Source of the DNA: Liolophura sinensis
Lineage: Eukaryota; Mollusca; Polyplacophora; Chitonida; Chitonidae
Assembly (NCBI RefSeq): GCF_032854445.1
Contig: NC_088295.1
Location: 26,585,385-26,649,384, forward strand
DNA length: 64,000 nucleotides
Direction of reading: 5' to 3'
The position numbers and the translations under genes are program-made. Below, piece after piece: positions 1 to 61,300 of the stretch; within the stretch, counting starts at the first letter, position 1; the number at the start of each line of letters is the position of its first letter. Below the pieces are notes generated by a model. The model was given only the letters and a program-made list of their open reading frames with translations, was not told where the DNA came from and did not search any database.

Positions 1-3000
1 AATTGTAGGAAAAAAACTGGCTGCATCCTAGAGAAACTACCTCCCTTTGTATATTACAGACTTGTTATTAACAATAAACCAAACACGATGTATTGTTTTA
101 TTTCACTGGTATTCATGCAGAAATTTTTTTTTCACAAGGAAAAAATAGGCTGTTGAGCTTTTGGCAATTATATAACTGATAGACTCCAACTTGTGACAAA
201 TTTTCATCCTTAGTAAACCCAAAATTGGTGGAAAGCTTGTGTTCTCCACTTGACGTCATGTAAGACAACTGTTGATCCTTTGAGTACCGTCAATCACATA
301 TCATCACATCAGAACATTAAATTGACACTCCTAAGCACCCGGGTTCCTCTCACTAAATGGCCGAAATGCTAATTTTTGCAGATTTCTAGATTAGTTTAAA
401 GTTTTACTGGACATTGAAACTAGCATATCTGAAGGCTAGATACATGTGAATTACTTTTCCACAAAGAATTTCTTACCTGAAAGCTATATTTTTCATTTTT
501 TATGCTAAAATCTTCTTCCGTGCCTATCTAACCTGTGTTAAATTTGCCTTGTTTTCACCTCTAGCACTTTAGCCATGTGACCAAAAAATGAGCTGAGGAT
601 TGGCTCAGAGCAGTTATAACATCACAGCAAAACTGTGAATAGTGGATATGAAGCAATTAAGAAGACTCCCTGTTCTAGGCTTTGATTGAACTAATACCTC
701 CTGTGTCCTACTGAATGAAAAACAGTCTGAATAACCACCAGACCACAATTCAGACAGACAGAGCACAACTGATGGCCACAGACCATACATATCAAAGCCA
801 ACTTATTTCATCCACTGGTACATATACCCCTATATGTAAGCTGGAGAATTATACTTACAGGACGGCTCATGCATGCATATGTATTTATATGTAATCATAA
901 AATCAAGAAGAAGTCAAGAATACTAGCCCTGATAATATAAATTTATGTGTGTATCAGAAAAGTTTACAATTTCGAAGTTTGAAATTGATTGTGTATGTTC
1001 AATAGATGCATTTTAATGGATCACAAATGTTCCTAGCCTCCAATGAATTGATATGTCTGGATTCCTTTGTTGGCCACACCTACACATAGGTAAGTTATAT
1101 TTGTACCTATAGAAGTCAGACACAACTGGTAGAAAATCATTTCTTTTGGTACATAACATATCAGCTGATGTATCTGTTGAATGACCATATAAAACCTTCA
1201 TCAGGTAAACACACATTTGCTGACGGAGCATAGTAAAGTGATTTCGCTCACTACTTCTAGAAATTGATTTCCAGTTACAAAGAAATGTCATTATGACATT
1301 GATTCCTCCCAATAGATAGTTCTGTACTACATGGTATCTATTCACCAATATCATGATTGTCATTTGCATATACATGTATTGGATACAAGCATAATGAAAA
1401 CAAAGACACCCCCATCTATTGTGGTTTGAAGGAATATCAACTAAGCCTCTGTACATCACATTACAATTTCTTGCATACTGTAAGAAGAATGTCAAGCAGA
1501 CTGACGTTCTAGTTTTAAACATCCTCAGATGTCCACAAAACAAAACCCCAGCAAGCTTTATGAGTTTGAGATTTGCTGGCCACAGTCATACACAGTAAGT
1601 GAAATATTCTTGAGTATATCAAAAAGCACCAATGAAATAAATAACATTTACTTTTACCAGCAAATTTACAATATATGTAACTATTTCAACACTATACATG
1701 AATAGAATACTGGGTTTGAATATAAAAATTCAACACAAGGCAATTGTCTGAAGAAGGGAGTCTTCGGCCAGTCCGATGGGGACATCTGTACAAAGGTTGT
1801 CTCCCCTCAGACCATCCCATACTGCGCCCGTGCCCCTCTATGCTTTGAATCACTAACACCGTTAGATAAGCTTGACATTTGGAGTCTGGGTGACGCATGA
1901 CATGACGTGGGCAGGTTTAGGCTTAGTCCCATCACTTGAACTAATAATGAGCATTCATCAATAAAATTATTTCAGGTATCCATTCAAATTATGTTATATC
2001 AAAAGAATGCAGTTGTGTCAAGTATTATTAGAATCAAACTTTGAGACAGATGCTTGTATCATTTGATATTATTTCCTGTTTCATCACCATGACCCCAGCT
2101 GTTCCAGATTTCTGTACAAAATTTGTTAGTGGTGGCAGTGATGTAAAGCAATCCTAGAAAGAGGCAAATGCGCTGTAAGGAATATGAATTTCTCCCACAT
2201 GTTTACATGATTGGGGGTAAATGACTCAATCAAGAATATTTCACCTATATACGGAAGGAGAAAAACAGTGCCTGAAAAACTCCTACGTAGGCCAACAGAT
2301 TAAGTGATTTACTATAAAAAAAATAATCATAAAACATTAAATCTAAAACAAGATATGTGACTTTTATGTACATTTAAGTTCTTGCCTGTCATACTCTGTT
2401 TTAAACAACTTACAAAAACATTTCATGAATATTTTGGAAGATCTTCATATTTCAAACAGCAAAACAGTATACAGTGTAATAATTTGGTAAAATGCACTAT
2501 AATGCTATGTGACAAGTGTGATCACATATGCCAGTAATTCATTTGTCTGACAGTCTCTTAAGATATCCATCCAAAATCATTGCAACTTTATTATAGTCTA
2601 CATTTGTAACTTCGTACGACCCCACAGATGTTAAGTAGCTGCGTTCAGACATAATTTGGATAATATCATAACTGTGTCATTTGGTGGTTCTACTTGCAGA
2701 AGAGGCCAGTATGAGATTACATGAAGTTTCACTAAAAATGGCTGTTTGAGTTCACTTTGACACTGTTATTACACTCAGTTCTCAGGTGCGAGGATATAAA
2801 CATAAAATTACGCCTGTCACTTGTAAGTATCATATCGGAAACAGGATCAAATATTCATTCATAAAAGGATTTCTTAGGGTATTGGCACAATAGCTTGGAA
2901 TAAGTGACCATGAAAAATATGTTGATTACATTGTAAACGTATGTGACTGGAATATATAGACAGTCATACAGGAAATAAAATCCTCAAAAACATTTAATAA

Positions 3001-36200: not shown

Positions 36201-39200
36201 ATCTCAGAAAATAAAGGGAGTTTGAGTTACATGAAAATTTTAATTTTGAGATCATTTACAATTTCACCCAACTAACAAATACAACAGTTATGTGTTACTT
36301 TCAAGTGTGGCTTACACTCTGGCCTACAACTCCAGCCATCTGGTCTGAGTTAACAGTCATGATATCTGACACTGGCCAGTCTTATCTGACATCAGGCCAG
36401 TGATTTAGACCAATTTGGCCCCATGAGGAAGGGAAGAGGTGGGGATTATAACTCAGGATGGGGGACAGCACTTGGAACCTTGATGTAAATCCATGTACAT
36501 GTAGGTACATGTAAAGTTCCCCCAAATAGACATTATAATTTACTATCTACTAAAAACTGCCTTTGATTAGAGAGGTTAAATTATAACGGTGAGTAACGTC
36601 TTTTCCTAACAAGGCTCAGACATGTATGAGTAGCAGGTATGTGTAAACCAGATATATCTGGTTTACACAAACTAACAAGGTTCTCGGATTATGACCATTA
36701 TGAATGATGAAGTTTCACACTAGCAGATCTGGAAACCAAAAAGGCTTGTGAACTGTACTTCATCCACAGTTTAGCCTTATTCACCTCACACATTTTATCT
36801 GATTCTGATTGATTCATTCACTGTACAGTGGCACATGCATACACCGTAAAAGATTTATTGTGGACTTAAAGCTTGATTAATTTCTTGTTCTGTAGGAAAG
36901 GTTAAGAATTGGCATGAAAACCCGTCAAGTTTTAAGATTTGCAGAAGAACTGGCAAGTTGCCCCACATACTGGCGCAGCAGCCCTGGTTATTTTGACCAG
37001 GGAGTACTAGTTCAAACTGCCTACCCTCCTGCTACCACCAAAAAGCTCTGCCTTGCCCTGCCCCCTCCCTCCCCCATGTGATGCCAGAGCAGCGGGGCAT
37101 TAGCTGCTGTGTGTATCAGTAGAGGGGTGAGGATGGTTTATTTCTGTATCAGCTGACATATGATACCTGCCTGCAATATCAGCCTCCAGAACAAGCTTGC
37201 CATGCTGCTTGTGACTGCCTTTAACCAGGATTAAACTGCAGCTCTGGACTGCTGACATCTGCAGCACATCATTACTGCTCATCAGTAGCTTCTTCAAGCA
37301 GGTCAGTAAGGTGCTGCCCTCTAGTGACAGTTCCAGCAAGGCTGTCCTGAAGGTTTCATTCAGTAAGTTGCGCTGTAATAAACCTGCAAAAAAAAGGTAA
37401 AAAAAAAACAAAACTGTTATCAAGGCATTCTCAACATGTTGCTGTCTGAAAACAGGACTGATACTCTACAAATTCTACATGACAGATGCTGATCCACGCC
37501 ATGCATACAGCTAGACATAATTTATTTTTCTTCTGCCTTTTTTTCATTATTAAACACATACATCTTGTTTACATGTGTTGTGTACATACATGTACCAGTT
37601 GCAGAAGAATAGCTTTTCTTCAAGAAAACAAGCCTTGTAAGAGTTATAAGCAGAAACACAGGTTATTATTTTAATTGAGCAGCATAATTCACTCACCACT
37701 GTTCAATCACACATGAAACTCCACAGAATCAAGCACAATGAGTTTTCTGTGATGACTACTGTACTAGACTGCTTCCAGACACTTAAACTGGATGACTAAA
37801 AAATTGCCCAATTTAATCCTGAGCAAATCATTTATTTCAGAGATTAAAATTTAATAAAAAAAATGGAACACAGTATAGCTTACAGTTGCACCACCTGGAT
37901 TTGGAGTACAGCTTGCATGATTTAATGTTTTGCATCATGGCTCCGATACATTCGTGAAAATTCCAGTCCTCTTCAAAATTCTCATAACTCTGGTGCCTAA
38001 AGGGTAGTTATCCCCATCCATAACTATATTGATGACACCTAGCCAGTCAATTTAATTCAGGTAAATGCACAATACATCCAACTGTCTTGTGTTTCAAATA
38101 TCTTTTGGCCCATGGAAATGTGTAAACTTCTATAAGCACATTACATATACTTATATCTTTAATCAGTAAATAATTCTTTTTTTTTAAGTGTCCCCAAAGA
38201 TAAACAGCTGCCCACCTTGGTAAACAGACAAATGGTTAGAGTCAACATATTTACTGAGAGGTTCCTATTGGGCAATTTTCAATCCAGCATCTTATCATCT
38301 ATCAATTCCAATCATGTACCAGGTACATGAAGGCTTAGAGCGAGGCAGAATGAGGTGTCCTATAATTTCTGGCTATGAGACAATCTGGGACAAAGTAGGT
38401 CACCACATGCTAAAATTATTTTTGGGCAAACTGAGGCACTGATTATTTGGCACAAGTACTTGGATTGCATAGGTGAGGTTCCAGCTGTCAATATGCATTC
38501 ACCTAACAGATTAATCTGCAGCTCCTGGGTCTCAGTCCTGGCCAGGTGAATGATGACGCAGTGGTGGACCTGGTGACATAACTTGATGGGTAGCTGAGGC
38601 TGAAGATCTTCCCTGAACACAAATATCATGATGTATACAAGAGCTGAGACAACAGCTTCTTCTGGATACAACAACCCGTTGCCCAATTCCCGCAGTAAGC
38701 CATCTGAAATGTGGAAGGAGAACATAAACACAAATATCATGATGTACACCAGGGCTGAGACAACTTCTTCTGGACACAACAACCCATTGCCCAATTCCCC
38801 CAGTAAGCCATCTGAAATGTGGAAGGAGAACATAAATACAAATATCATGATGTACACCAGGGCTGAGACAACTTCTTCTGGACACAACAACCAACCCATT
38901 GCCCAATTCCCCCAGTAAGCCATCTGAAATGTGGAAGGAGAACATAAACACAAATATCATGATGTACACCAGGGCTGAGACAACTTCTTCTGGACACAAC
39001 AACCCGTTGCCCAATTCCCCCAGTAAGCCATCTGAAATGTGGAAGGAGAACATAAATACAAATATCATGATGTACACCACGGCTGAGACAAAAGCTTCTT
39101 CTGGACACAACAACCTGTTGCCCAATTCCCCCAGTAAGCCATCTGATATGTGGAAGGAGAACATAAACACAAACATCATGATGTACACCAGGGCTGACAC

Positions 39201-42200
39201 AACAGCTTCTTCTGGACACAACAACCCATTGCCCAATTCCCCCAGTAAGCCATCTGAAATGTGGAAGGAGAACATAAACACAAACATCATGATGTACACC
39301 AGGGCTGACACAACAGCTTCTTCTGGACACAACAACCCATTGCCCAATTCCCCCAGTAAGCCATCTGATATGTGGAAGGAGAACATAAACACAAACATCA
39401 TGATGTACACCAGGGCTGACACAACAGCATTTTCAAGATACACCAACCCATTGCCCAATTCCACCAGTAAGCCATCTGAAATGTGGAAGGAGAACATAAA
39501 CACAAACATCATGATGTACACCACGGCTGACACAACAGCATTTTCAAGATACACCAACCCATTGCCCAATTCCCCCAGTAAGCCATCTGAAATGTGGAAG
39601 GAGAACATAAACACAAATATCATGATGTACACCAGGGCTGAGACAAAAGCTTCTTCTGGATACAACAACCCGTTGCCCAATTCCCCCAGTAAGCCATCTG
39701 ATATGTGGAAGGAGAACATAAACACAAATATCATGATGTACACCAGGGCTGAGACAACAGCTTCTTCTGGACACAACAACCCATTGCCCAATTCCCGCAG
39801 TAAGCCATCTGATATGTAGAAGGAGAACATAAACACAAATATCATGATGTACACCAGGGCTGACACAACAGCATCTTCAAGATACACCAACCAATAGCTC
39901 AATTCCACCAGTAAGCCATCTGAAATTTGGAAGGAGAACATAAACACAAATATCATGATGTACACCAGGGCTGAGACAACAACTTCTTCTGGACACAACA
40001 ACCCGTTGCCCAATTCCCGCAGTAAGCCATCTGAAATGTGGAAGGAGAACATAAACACAAATATCATGATGTACACCAGGGCTGAGACAAAAGCTTCTTC
40101 TGGATACAACAACCCGTTGCCCAATTCCCCCAGTAAGCCATCTGAAATGTGGAAGGAGAACATAAACACAAACATCATGATGTACACCAGGGCTGAGACA
40201 ACTTCTTCTGGACACAACAACCCGTTGCCCAATTCCCCCAGTAAGCCATCTGAAATGTGGAAGGAGAACATAAACACAAATATCATGATGTACACCACGG
40301 CTGAGACAAAAGCTTCTTCTGGACACAACAACCTGTTGCCCAATTCCCCCAGTAAGCCATCTGATATGTGGAAGGAGAACATAAACACAAATATCATGAT
40401 GTACACCAGGGCTGACACAACAGCATCTTCAAGATACACCAACCAATAGCTCAATTCCACCAGTAAGCCATCTGAAATTTGGAAGGAGAACATAAACACA
40501 AATATCATGATGTACACCACGGCTGAGACAACAGCTTCTTCTGGACACAACAACCTGTTGCCCAATTCCCCCAGTAAGCCATCTGAAATGTGAAGGAAGA
40601 ACATCGATAATGCAAAGGTGCAACTCTTAATGTTGTAGACCAAATATCTGATTTGGTCTTTACCACAATTTAATTGAATTACAGAAATAAATTTAACTGA
40701 AATTTATCTGCAACATCAGCCATTCTTTTTCATTTCCAGTTATAGGTATAGCAGGAATTTCTGATGCCAAATATTAAATACACTACAATGTTTGAACAGC
40801 TGCATGAATGTTAACAAGTCATTCTGAAATATGATCAACCTTACCGCCTGTGCTGAGATGATGATTCTAACATTTTACATTGTGGGTTTCTCATTTTACA
40901 ATATGCTCACCACAGCTTTTATTAATTTGTGGTCTAAAAATAAAAAAGAAATTGATCTGTACAGTTTTAAAGGTTTCAATGCTCCTATCATCAAAAGTAC
41001 AGGGAAAATCATACCCAGAAGTCCACCAAAACAGTACAAGCCTAGTGATACTTAGATCTGACCCACTAAGTGCATTAGTCACAAATGTTTTACATATATG
41101 TGGCACACACATCTCTGTTACAGTATAACCACACCTCCCTATGTATGTTTGCATAAACTCAATTACTTCTTTTATGATGTTTTTAGTTGGGAGGGTTGTG
41201 GAATTGTTTAGATATAACATTTTAGTACATGTTACAGACACTATAACAGTAAAGTTCTATCCAGATTATGTTATGATAATGCAGGCTGTGGTGTGATTCA
41301 TGTTAACAAAGACTTACTGTACTGATGAACCAGCACTTCAGCCAGCCCTGGGATGTCATTCAGCAGCCTTCCCAAGAGGACTAGGACAGACAAACACTGC
41401 TCTAGCTTGTTCTTCTGGCAACACTGAAAATACTTGTTACAAAGACCACTGTTCATGTTAATTTTGGCAAGTAATGCATTGCAAAACATGGTTTTGCACG
41501 ACTAAGAAAGAAACACTGTACTGTTATTAAAACAGAATGGTTCTTTTGTTTCGGAGTTGATTCTTTTGGTTTTACTACTTCCATACTAAAAAAAAAAAAA
41601 AACACATTTCACCTTATACTGGGCCTGTAATTTTGACTGGTGCAGGAAACCAGAATGCAGTAAACCATTAACCTTTGGCAAGAAACTGACAAACTTAACT
41701 ACATGTGACACAGATTTTCATCCCCGGGGAAAAAACTGTATGCTGTGTTTCTGGAAGGCAATTCAGTGATCTCCAACACACTTCATGCACTAAAAGCACT
41801 TCAACCGACCTACAACCACAGTCACCTCCTTACTGCCACCTAGATGTAAGATGCAAGCTTCATAAAATTGTGCAAATTGTTTCCCAATATGCCATAGCTC
41901 TCTCAGAATGTTTCAAAATATTGATCACAGTGATGGTTGAAAAGAGTGAAAAATTAGGGTAGATGGTTTCACAGGGTTTCAACCAGCTAAGACCATTGTT
42001 CATTATGCACATAAATGTCCAATGTATGCCTTGGCAGAGCCTCAGCTAGGCTGAACTGGCTTTGTTACACCTTTAAATGGCTTTGTCCTGTTGTAGCCCC
42101 CCTGCTCTATTCTCTATGCATGATAAGAGTGAATGAGATTTTTATCGGGTTTACATGTGTAGTGAATTGTTAATACTTGAATCATTATCACAATTTAAGA

Positions 42201-58300: not shown

Positions 58301-61300
58301 CACGACAACCCTTTACCAAACCTGTGTCGGGGCATGAAGATAGCGTTGTTTCAGTGTGTCATCCTTAAAAGGATGATTTGTTTGTGCTCCCAATTTCTTC
58401 CAAGAGATGTCAACCAGGAAGACATCGGTTGGTCATTGGTTCATCTGACCTAGGTGAACAAGAAGTCAAGCCAGACTACGACGGTAACATTTGAGAACAA
58501 TGCCTGCTGTGTACTATCTGTAAATGTTGCGTGAGTTTCGCTAAAAGACTGATATATTATCTGCAAAAATCAAAAGATAAAAATAAAATAATTGAGTTGT
58601 TACTATTTTATCAAAATGAAAACACAGAATAAAATGTTCGAAATTAAGAAAAAACATCGAAGATGGTATTTGATTGTTTGCAGTGTAACTAACCGCTATT
58701 TAACTTTGTAGGGTAAGTTCATCCGTATCCACTTCGGTACCCAAGGTAAAATAGCCGGTGCCGACATTGAGACATGTAAGTTTTCATCAGTTTTACGTAC
58801 TTCTTTTACAGTTGAAAACAAAACGATAACTTCATATATTTCTTGTCATTAATTGATGTGCCATTTATGTGATTGATTGCTGCCACTCTAAAGCAAAGGA
58901 AGACTGTAGTTTTCTGACATTATGTCGTCTGCTATTTCAGTTGATTCCTGAACTGCTGTTTTTATCACCACGAATTGGCATCAGACAACCATACATAGAT
59001 CCAAACATCCAAACAGACTTAAGCTTTTGTGATATTTCCAGATGTTGACTTTTACTGCGTTGTATGTTTAAGATCTGTTGGAGAAATCCCGTGTGACTTT
59101 CCAGCAGCCTGCTGAGAGGAACTACCACATCTTCTACCAGATGTTGTCTAATGCGATTCCAGCTGTTGTTGGTAAGTCAGATGTATTTTCTAGCTGTTGT
59201 TGGTAAATCAGATGTATTTCCTAGCTGTTATTGGTAAGTCAGATGTATTTCGTAGCTGTTGTTGGTAAGTCAGATGTATTTCGTAGCTGTTGTTGGTAAG
59301 TCACATGTATTTCCCAGCTGTTGTTGGTAAGTCACATGTATTTCCTAGGATGAGGGACAAGCTGTTTTAAATTACATTTCTATTTCATCATGACATCTAC
59401 CTACCTGGATTTTCCTGTATTCTGTTTGTCATTATGGAATGCTGCGCCCTGTCTTTCTTCATTTCAGGGTTAAACCTTCATGTACTCTGATGCTCTGTTG
59501 AGGTAACATGTATATTTGACCAGTTGTTGAACAAATGACACAGCCGGCAGTGATCAGAAAGTTATCATTTACACGGTTTTTCATTTTTACAGAGAAGGTC
59601 CTGATGAGCGCCGACCCAGCTCTTTATTTCTTCATCAACCAGGGTAGCATTGTCGTTGACAATATGGACGACAAAGAGGAAATGAAGACTACCGACGTAA
59701 GTTGCCCAGCTCGTTGCCAGTCTGTTTCCCAATACATCATCTGTTCACATCTGACTGTAACAACGCATGGCTTTGGTGCCTGGTCTGAACATTCCCTGTG
59801 TAGGGTGTGGTGTGGTGGTGACCCAATTTGGGAGCCCTTATAATTTATTAAAAAAATATATGATTTTCAAAAGTGTCCGACCACTGAAGGAAAATATCAA
59901 TAAACAGTGGGGTTATTAACAGATCTAAAATTTGACTAAAAAACAACAACACAACTTTCCATCATTTCCCTTAAACCATATCCATAATCCACTAAGAAGG
60001 CAACCTGAGGCATAAAATGGTTGATTGGGTAACTGCTGGTATAGCACGGCAAGTCAGTTATGAGTTCCTTTCATGTATTCTATGATTAAGTTAGGAAGTT
60101 TGTGGGAAACCTGGTGAAGGTTTGTTGTTTCCCCCGAGAGGTGTCCAGTTCCCTGACTTGCATCACCTCACGTACATACGCCGTTAAAGCCTAAGCAAAT
60201 AAATAAATCATTACTATTTGCAGAATGCCTTCGACGTTCTGGGCTTTACCGAGGAAGAGAAGAACAGTATGTACAAATGTACCGGTGCCATTGTTCACTT
60301 TGGTGAGATGAAGTTCAAGCAGAGGCCCAGAGAGGAGCAGGCTGAAGCTGACGGCACTGCGGGTAAGGGACATAGCTTATCTCTCATCCCTTCTGAGGAA
60401 TTGGTGCAACAGATATTCAAAGAGGTTTATCGGCTTTGTTCAGAAATCCAGCTGATAATTTACATTTTGAATTATTAAGTCAACATTGTCAGTGTAGTAA
60501 AAAGATAACTGTGCAACGAATTTAATGTAGTTTTGCCCAGAAAAAGTATAGATTTTGTCTAACAGAGACACGAAATCAGTGAGAGTTGCAATTATGCTTT
60601 GTGTTTCTTTTCCTACAAATGGTTTAACAGCTCCACGCTTTCTGCAGCATTTTCAGCAATGCCTATAGGTATATTTTACTCTCTTTTAATCAATAATTAA
60701 TCCTCCTTCTTCTTCAGAGGCCGAGAAAGTTGCCTTCTTGATGGGTGTGAATGCTGGCGACTTGCTGAAGGGTTTGCTGAAGCCCAAGATCAAGGTCGGT
60801 AATGAGTACGTCACCCAAGGGCGTACCAAGGACCAGGTTGTGTACTCCGTGGCCGCTCTCGCCAAGGCCACCTACGATCGTATGTTCAAGTGGCTCGTCA
60901 TGAGAGTTAACAAGACTCTGGACACCAAGAACAAGAGGCAGTTCTTTATCGGCGTACTGGATATCGCCGGATTTGAGATCTTCGACGTAAGTTTTCAACA
61001 CTATGTCAACGTGTAGGTCTATGTGCAGCGAAACAATTCGATGATGTACAACTTAAAAACAGTAAAATGGAACATGATTATGAGGGTTCACGTTGAGTTG
61101 TGTTACAAGTGCTTTTGAAGACCGATAAATTGAAAGAAGTTTCAGAGAGAGGTTTTGTAACCAATGTCCAAAGAGATCTTTACACAAATGTTGAAGTTAT
61201 CATAAGGGAAATTCTTTCAGAAGAAGAAGTCATAGTACTCATTTTCTATTACAGTACAACAGCTTCGAACAGTTGTGTATTAATTACACTAACGAGAGGT

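Follow-up and report, generated by a model that had tools for sequence, protein, structure and literature searches.

Minisatellite-like tandem copies of intron/exon boundaries have been described in amphioxus, where they are called mirages (PMC3087553, PMC3902484). In the passages of these reports that deal with them, such arrays take an acceptor-side and a donor-side form: the mirage of the globin gene BflGb6 copies an acceptor in units of 150-160 bp, of which one haplotype has 6 and another 3, that of BflGb9 (157 bp) copies a donor, and others occur in Adh3 (10-72 bp), TnC and PGBD5 (60 and 108 bp; PMC3087553, PMC3902484). The globin mirages exchange units and differ in length between haplotypes, and reverse transcription polymerase chain reaction of globin transcripts together with data on Adh3 is said to suggest that splicing is undisturbed (PMC3087553, PMC3902484). 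Arrays of the mirage type have also been proposed, in the former report, as the seed of new introns (PMC3087553). Here we describe an array that is very probably neutral junk of this already described kind. It lies on the minus strand of a 64,000-nucleotide stretch of Liolophura sinensis DNA (contig NC_088295.1, positions 26,585,385 to 26,649,384; this whole analysed stretch is called the window), in a gene labelled MEI1, and consists of 18 tandem copies of the boundary between an intron and an exon of that gene.

Two other systems resemble it in part. Human genes in segmental duplications carry internal tandem repeats that are likewise located on exon-intron boundaries and are mostly minisatellites; they were found by comparison of paralogous genes and of the RNAs of these, have 30-bp units in four copies on average, and in some cases alter how the gene is spliced or give rise to new introns (PMC2812944). 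In the RdRp gene of potato, intron gain by tandem genomic duplication has been reported, so that there, too, a tandem duplication is tied to new splice sites; unlike that case, in which the relevant passages report a new intron, the units described here have no strong donor and are unlikely to act as exons of their own (PMC4974935).

The resemblance to the amphioxus mirages, as the reports portray them in those passages, extends to the tandem boundary copies, the splice signals in many copies, the exchange between units and the existence of acceptor and donor versions. The differences are that the present array is in a mollusc and in another gene, that it has 18 copies, and that evidence of normal splicing is reported for amphioxus, whereas the present array is known from genomic sequence. 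The array thus adds a new lineage to a known kind. The original prediction, made from the letters of the window, knew of no described counterpart in MEI1; mirages of the same anatomy are nevertheless published for amphioxus (PMC3087553, PMC3902484), while a full-text literature search, with subscription journals largely outside it, gave no mirage in a mollusc or in MEI1 among the matches listed, and one mollusc paper, in the part of its text that was available, has the word minisatellite solely in its reference list (PMC3862624).

Anatomy of the Array

Tandem Repeats Finder (TRF) reports the array with a period of 111, 92% matches and a score of 3268, between an upstream exon that ends at 41318 and the exon at 38703-38503 (Table 1). 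Each unit is part intron and part exon: about 25 nt of the 3′ end of the intron, comprising a polypyrimidine tract and CAG, are followed by the first ~86 nt of the exon. Splitting the array at CAG/ATGGCTTACTG yields exactly 18 acceptors, whose first exon-like bases run from 40582 down to 38703. The original prediction of a tandem array that copies an intron/exon boundary in 18 acceptors with a 111-bp unit was therefore correct. The upstream exon, which it placed at 41318, does end there and has the donor GTAAGT. The last copy, unit 18, is the beginning of the real exon; it stands intact beside the array, in frame with both the upstream and the downstream exons.

The acceptors resemble one another closely. 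The AG is present in all 18 units, pyrimidines make up 75-80% of positions -24 to -5 before every one of them, and the AG-free stretch that precedes the acceptor is 39 nt long in unit 1 and 49 nt in units 2-18. The 17 extra sites look no worse than the authentic acceptor, which upholds the suggestion that the spliceosome meets 17 decoy acceptors. That every AG is kept had also been foreseen; this carries little weight, because units 1-17 show no variation at 71 of the unit's 110 dinucleotides and an invariant AG therefore needs no selection. An array of this kind is a natural test of how the spliceosome chooses among near-identical 3′ sites. Among units 1-17, thirteen are 111 bp long, three are 108 bp (units 4, 15 and 17) and one, unit 16, is 112 bp.

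The array was found at one locus in one assembly: a search of the genome (609 Mb) with two of the units, which may miss copies, returned 10 matches, all inside it. No Pfam family above the cut-off was obtained for the exons of the array-bearing gene. The name MEI1 comes from the original prediction and is taken here as a label only.

Table 1. Coordinates of the array, of the exons around it and of the donor-side arrays in other genes (positions of the window unless a contig is given).
Feature	Location	Strand	Basis or remark
Upstream exon; donor GTAAGT, one base left over	41318..41423	-	Scripted splicing
Tandem array, 111-bp unit x 18.0	38616..40604	-	TRF, unit split, unit alignment
GGTT insertion (4 bp) in unit 16, approximate position	38893..38896	-	Unit split and alignment; placement within GGTTGGTT repeat ambiguous
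Unit 17, 108 bp; sole extra unit whose inclusion would keep the frame (36 more residues)	38704..38811	-	Unit split, scripted splicing
Real exon, 201 nt; first 86 nt are unit 18, then non-repeated exon; donor GTGAAT	38503..38703	-	In phase with upstream exon
TGA reached from acceptors 1-16, inside real exon	38532..38534	-	Scripted splicing
Next exon downstream; acceptor GCAG/GTTTATTACAG	~37383	-	Phase carried on from real exon
Muscle myosin heavy chain array, 6.2 copies of a 31-bp unit built from exon end AGCTGTTGTTG plus donor	59157..59348	+	TRF, sequence
Second myosin (L037), 66-bp unit, 7 copies, 97% matches; exon end GTGTGATCATCAG and donor GTATGT	Contig C12, locus 1083-1514
Third myosin (L045), 32-bp arrays; exon end GGCAACAT, donor GTGAGTAT	Contig C11, locus 563-894 and 1210-1484
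SMAD gene (L018), 31-bp unit; exon end TACAG and donor GTAAGT	Contig C2, locus 1-185		Starts at donor of SMAD MH2 exon (E 7.6e-11)
GH31 gene (L011), 39-bp unit; 28 nt of GH31 exon and donor	Contig C1, locus from ~1410 on		GH31 exon, E 3.7e-14

Reading Frame and the Predicted Outcome of Splicing

Splicing from the upstream exon (end at 41318) to each acceptor was simulated by script, and the resulting reading frame was followed. The frame is preserved as far as the donor of the real exon from acceptors 17 and 18 only. Since unit 16 is 112 bp long through its extra GGTT, acceptors 1-16 are shifted in frame and all end at the same TGA at 38534. The original prediction had assumed that the units, being 111 or 108 bp long, preserve the frame, and it is in this point that it fails. 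The long opening of 703 codons that it described does exist, and is 723 codons from stop to stop (40703-38532); from unit 16 on, however, its frame is the wrong one and it closes at the TGA (38534-38532) within the real exon, so that it is not continued into the gene's own frame in this assembly. The plus strand, said to be open as well, is so in stretches of 322 and 183 codons, which are broken by stops.

We consider it highly probable from the sequence that the array is a mirage, that is, a minisatellite whose founding unit by chance spanned a splice boundary, with the exon-nearest acceptor serving the gene. About 111 bp, roughly from -24 to +87 around the acceptor of the exon, would have been duplicated in tandem in a minisatellite-rich mollusc genome, and slippage or unequal exchange may then have produced the 17 extra copies on the intron side. 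Splicing would take the exon-nearest acceptor, at 38703, to give the 201-nt exon, exon definition perhaps favouring an acceptor near the donor, and units 1-17 would be removed as intron, so that the protein would be unchanged.

The same 18 acceptors allow another outcome. If the extra ones were used part of the time, most transcripts made from them would be frame-shifted and subject to nonsense-mediated decay, and the number of repeats would tune the output of the gene. The near-equal strength of the 18 sites, the TGA awaiting acceptors 1-16 and the presence of at least one further exon (at ~37383) all suit such an effect; set against this, nothing in the present analysis shows use of an extra acceptor, and we regard it as improbable. 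Little credence is likewise given to its fullest form, in which some extra acceptors would be used in gonad, the one at 38811 adding 36 residues in frame and acceptors 1-16 giving decaying transcripts. Were it true, the amount of a meiotic recombination protein would be set by a repeat number that is free to change in each generation.

Could a single unit serve as a separate exon? The stretch that comprises units 1 to 18 has 0 GTAAG, 0 GTGAG and 0 GTATGT words, so a unit is unlikely to be used in this way; GGT occurs 42 times (AGGT 3 times), and weak GT donor sites are possible. An array of cassette exons, with an acceptor and a donor in each unit, was dropped as a candidate on the same count, there being no strong donor word between units 1 and 18.

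Changes Among the Units

Whether the array is translated bears on the suggestion of the original prediction that the gene encodes a domain of variable length, built from repeats of 37 residues. In its favour are the 723-codon open frame and the lengths of the units, 16 of units 1-17 being multiples of 3, with one indel that is a clean codon loss. Through the 112-bp unit 16, units 1-16 are nonetheless shifted in frame relative to the real exon, and the repeat peptide contains a very hydrophobic stretch of 19 residues (Kyte-Doolittle mean 2.36), many copies of which would be unlikely in a nuclear protein.

The pattern of change, at the low power of this sample, also shows no departure from a neutral one. 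A comparison of nonsynonymous with synonymous change had been proposed as a check for coding constraint, and it was run on the 22 substitution alleles of units 1-17 in the originally predicted reading frame, after removal of unit 18 and of the GGTT columns and with gaps ignored. There are 17 nonsynonymous and 5 synonymous changes, compared with a neutral mean of 5.7 synonymous (P for at least 5, 0.73); in the exon-derived part the figures are 15 and 4, with 5.3 synonymous expected. The chance of meeting zero stops after 22 random changes is itself 0.47. The variant alleles are distributed as 3 in the 25 intron-derived and 19 in the 86 exon-derived nucleotides. Changes among units 1-17 thus look neutral, on 22 events and with low power. 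With 16 of the 18 acceptors shifting the frame, unit changes that look neutral and no GTRAG donor in the array, the length-variable domain is not borne out, and we hold it to be very improbable.

The real exon differs from all units by three private changes, all three of them synonymous, as befits the single coding copy. Set against the 15:4 ratio of the exon-derived parts, this gives a one-sided Fisher p of ~0.02, from small numbers and with the direction of change unpolarised.

In the unit alignment no difference separates unit 5 from unit 9, and a single one separates the members of the pairs 2/7, 3/14 and 4/15. Identity or near-identity of distant units points to exchange between non-adjacent units, and the array turns over as other minisatellites do. 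Units 2, 7, 10 and 11 have in common a block of clustered differences, TTGGTGTATCTTGAA... instead of TTGTTGTGTCCAGAA..., as though a second, older type of unit had contributed to them. That a single junction was falsely multiplied in assembly is scarcely credible: the array is known from one assembly, and one of the published amphioxus mirages seems to have been misassembled in the draft genome (PMC3087553), yet among units 1-17 every pair but 5 and 9 shows differences, in 1 to 20 columns of the alignment with gaps included, and the indels vary from unit to unit, which duplicated reads would not produce. The number of copies may nonetheless be somewhat inaccurate.

Several points weigh against a mirage in which only the last acceptor serves the gene. 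As the 18 acceptors are about equally strong, the sites themselves give no reason for the last one to win, and we infer this choice of acceptor from the genome and not from transcripts. The GGTT insertion comes from one assembly of one haplotype, and if it is an assembly error, or on a haplotype that lacks it, the array would be in frame again. The neutrality test, with its 22 events, has little power.

Donor-Side Arrays in Other Genes

At least five further genes in this genome have boundary-copying arrays, and all five copy donors (Table 1). One is a neighbouring muscle myosin heavy chain gene in the window, in which the exon running into the array matches Pfam Myosin_head (E 2.2e-10) and the donor is present six times, starting at 59171, as GTAAGT in five copies and as GTAAAT in one. 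This myosin scores 878 and 864 bits against the 3i5f and 1b7t chains and at most 750 bits against Myosin-7 and other vertebrate chains; we take 3i5f and 1b7t to be squid and scallop myosins. Eight tandem haemocyanin beta-sandwich domains (PF14830) lie at C8:37880506-37891931, and since this family and its tandem build are presumably molluscan, they mark the genome as that of a mollusc, not of an amphioxus, which the published mirages had first suggested. Neither the GFP family PF01353 nor the annelid linker PF16915 gave a hit, in both cases with no positive control responding.

In the third myosin, about three worn units are closest to the exon, with the repeated exon end and donor behind them. 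The exon part of the unit in the SMAD gene is only TACAG. The SMAD and GH31 arrays were found through a search for arrays of donor words and are therefore uninformative on frequency. In that search the 5′ flanks of 15 arrays were fetched, and Pfam was queried with 7 upstream frames taken at five of the loci (L011, L013, L014, L017 and L018), the L011 query being the last 80 codons of 99. A Pfam-supported exon runs into the array at 2 of these 5 loci (SMAD MH2 and GH31), and the upstream frames of L013 and L014 had no Pfam match. At L017, on contig C2, a 26-bp array of donor-like sites stands directly behind an exon-like stretch with an acceptor and a donor, without a Pfam hit. Among the 10 loci outside the Pfam query, the upstream frames of L007 and L010 are open for 54 and 95 codons.

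Six genes with mirages in one mollusc genome suggest that such arrays originate in minisatellite richness and not in lancelet biology.

Blind Capture or Preference for Splice Sites

How often would a minisatellite fall on a splice boundary by chance? The question was put to 30 myosin-head loci, of which three (L026, L027 and L040) lie in the window, itself chosen because of one such array, and were dropped before the count. The remaining 27 loci have 54 nominal boundaries, which are match ends, not mapped exon ends, of the matched exons only. After overlapping loci were merged, they contain 27 distinct arrays in 81,030 bp of unique sequence, 13% of which is minisatellite, and 0.88 captures of a boundary are expected under blind placement (0.70 without one two-copy row of 267 bp); the unmerged loci, 87,048 bp in all, had 28 arrays, for which blind placement predicts 0.83. 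Two captures are seen, those of L037 and L045, and the Poisson chance of at least two is ~0.22. The seven arrays at most 120 bp from a matched exon were rechecked individually; the alignment scores of L029 and L043 are no proof of capture, their segments extending into the array itself. Boundary capture in these loci is not clearly above blind placement, a mild excess being possible in a small sample.

Donor words were counted across the genome as well, in overlapping matches on which a few long arrays weigh heavily. Three spaced copies of CAGGTAAGT occur 264 times for 9,807 single words (2.7%), compared with 41 for 2,757 (1.5%) for the dinucleotide-matched control CAAGGTAGT, and with 158 for 4,854 (3.3%) and 86 for 4,840 (1.8%) for two reversed controls; triples of the shorter GGTAAGT number 1,754, and those of its reversed control 2,516. 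Relative to their abundance, donor words are thus not clearly enriched in arrays. Counted by eye, there are at least 15 arrays of the donor word in the first 100 of its 264 rows and 6 of the matched control in all 41 rows, or at least 0.15% and 0.22% per single word, respectively. Because the donor rate is above two of the controls but below one, the idea that arrays seek out splice sites was dropped; a mild preference is possible. The simplest account is blind capture, in which a minisatellite-rich genome at times founds an array on a splice boundary, and such an array survives if its exon-nearest copy still works.

Two alike 40-bp arrays of donor words, at C2:109440 and C2:176925, lie ~67 kb apart and are perhaps a dispersed minisatellite.
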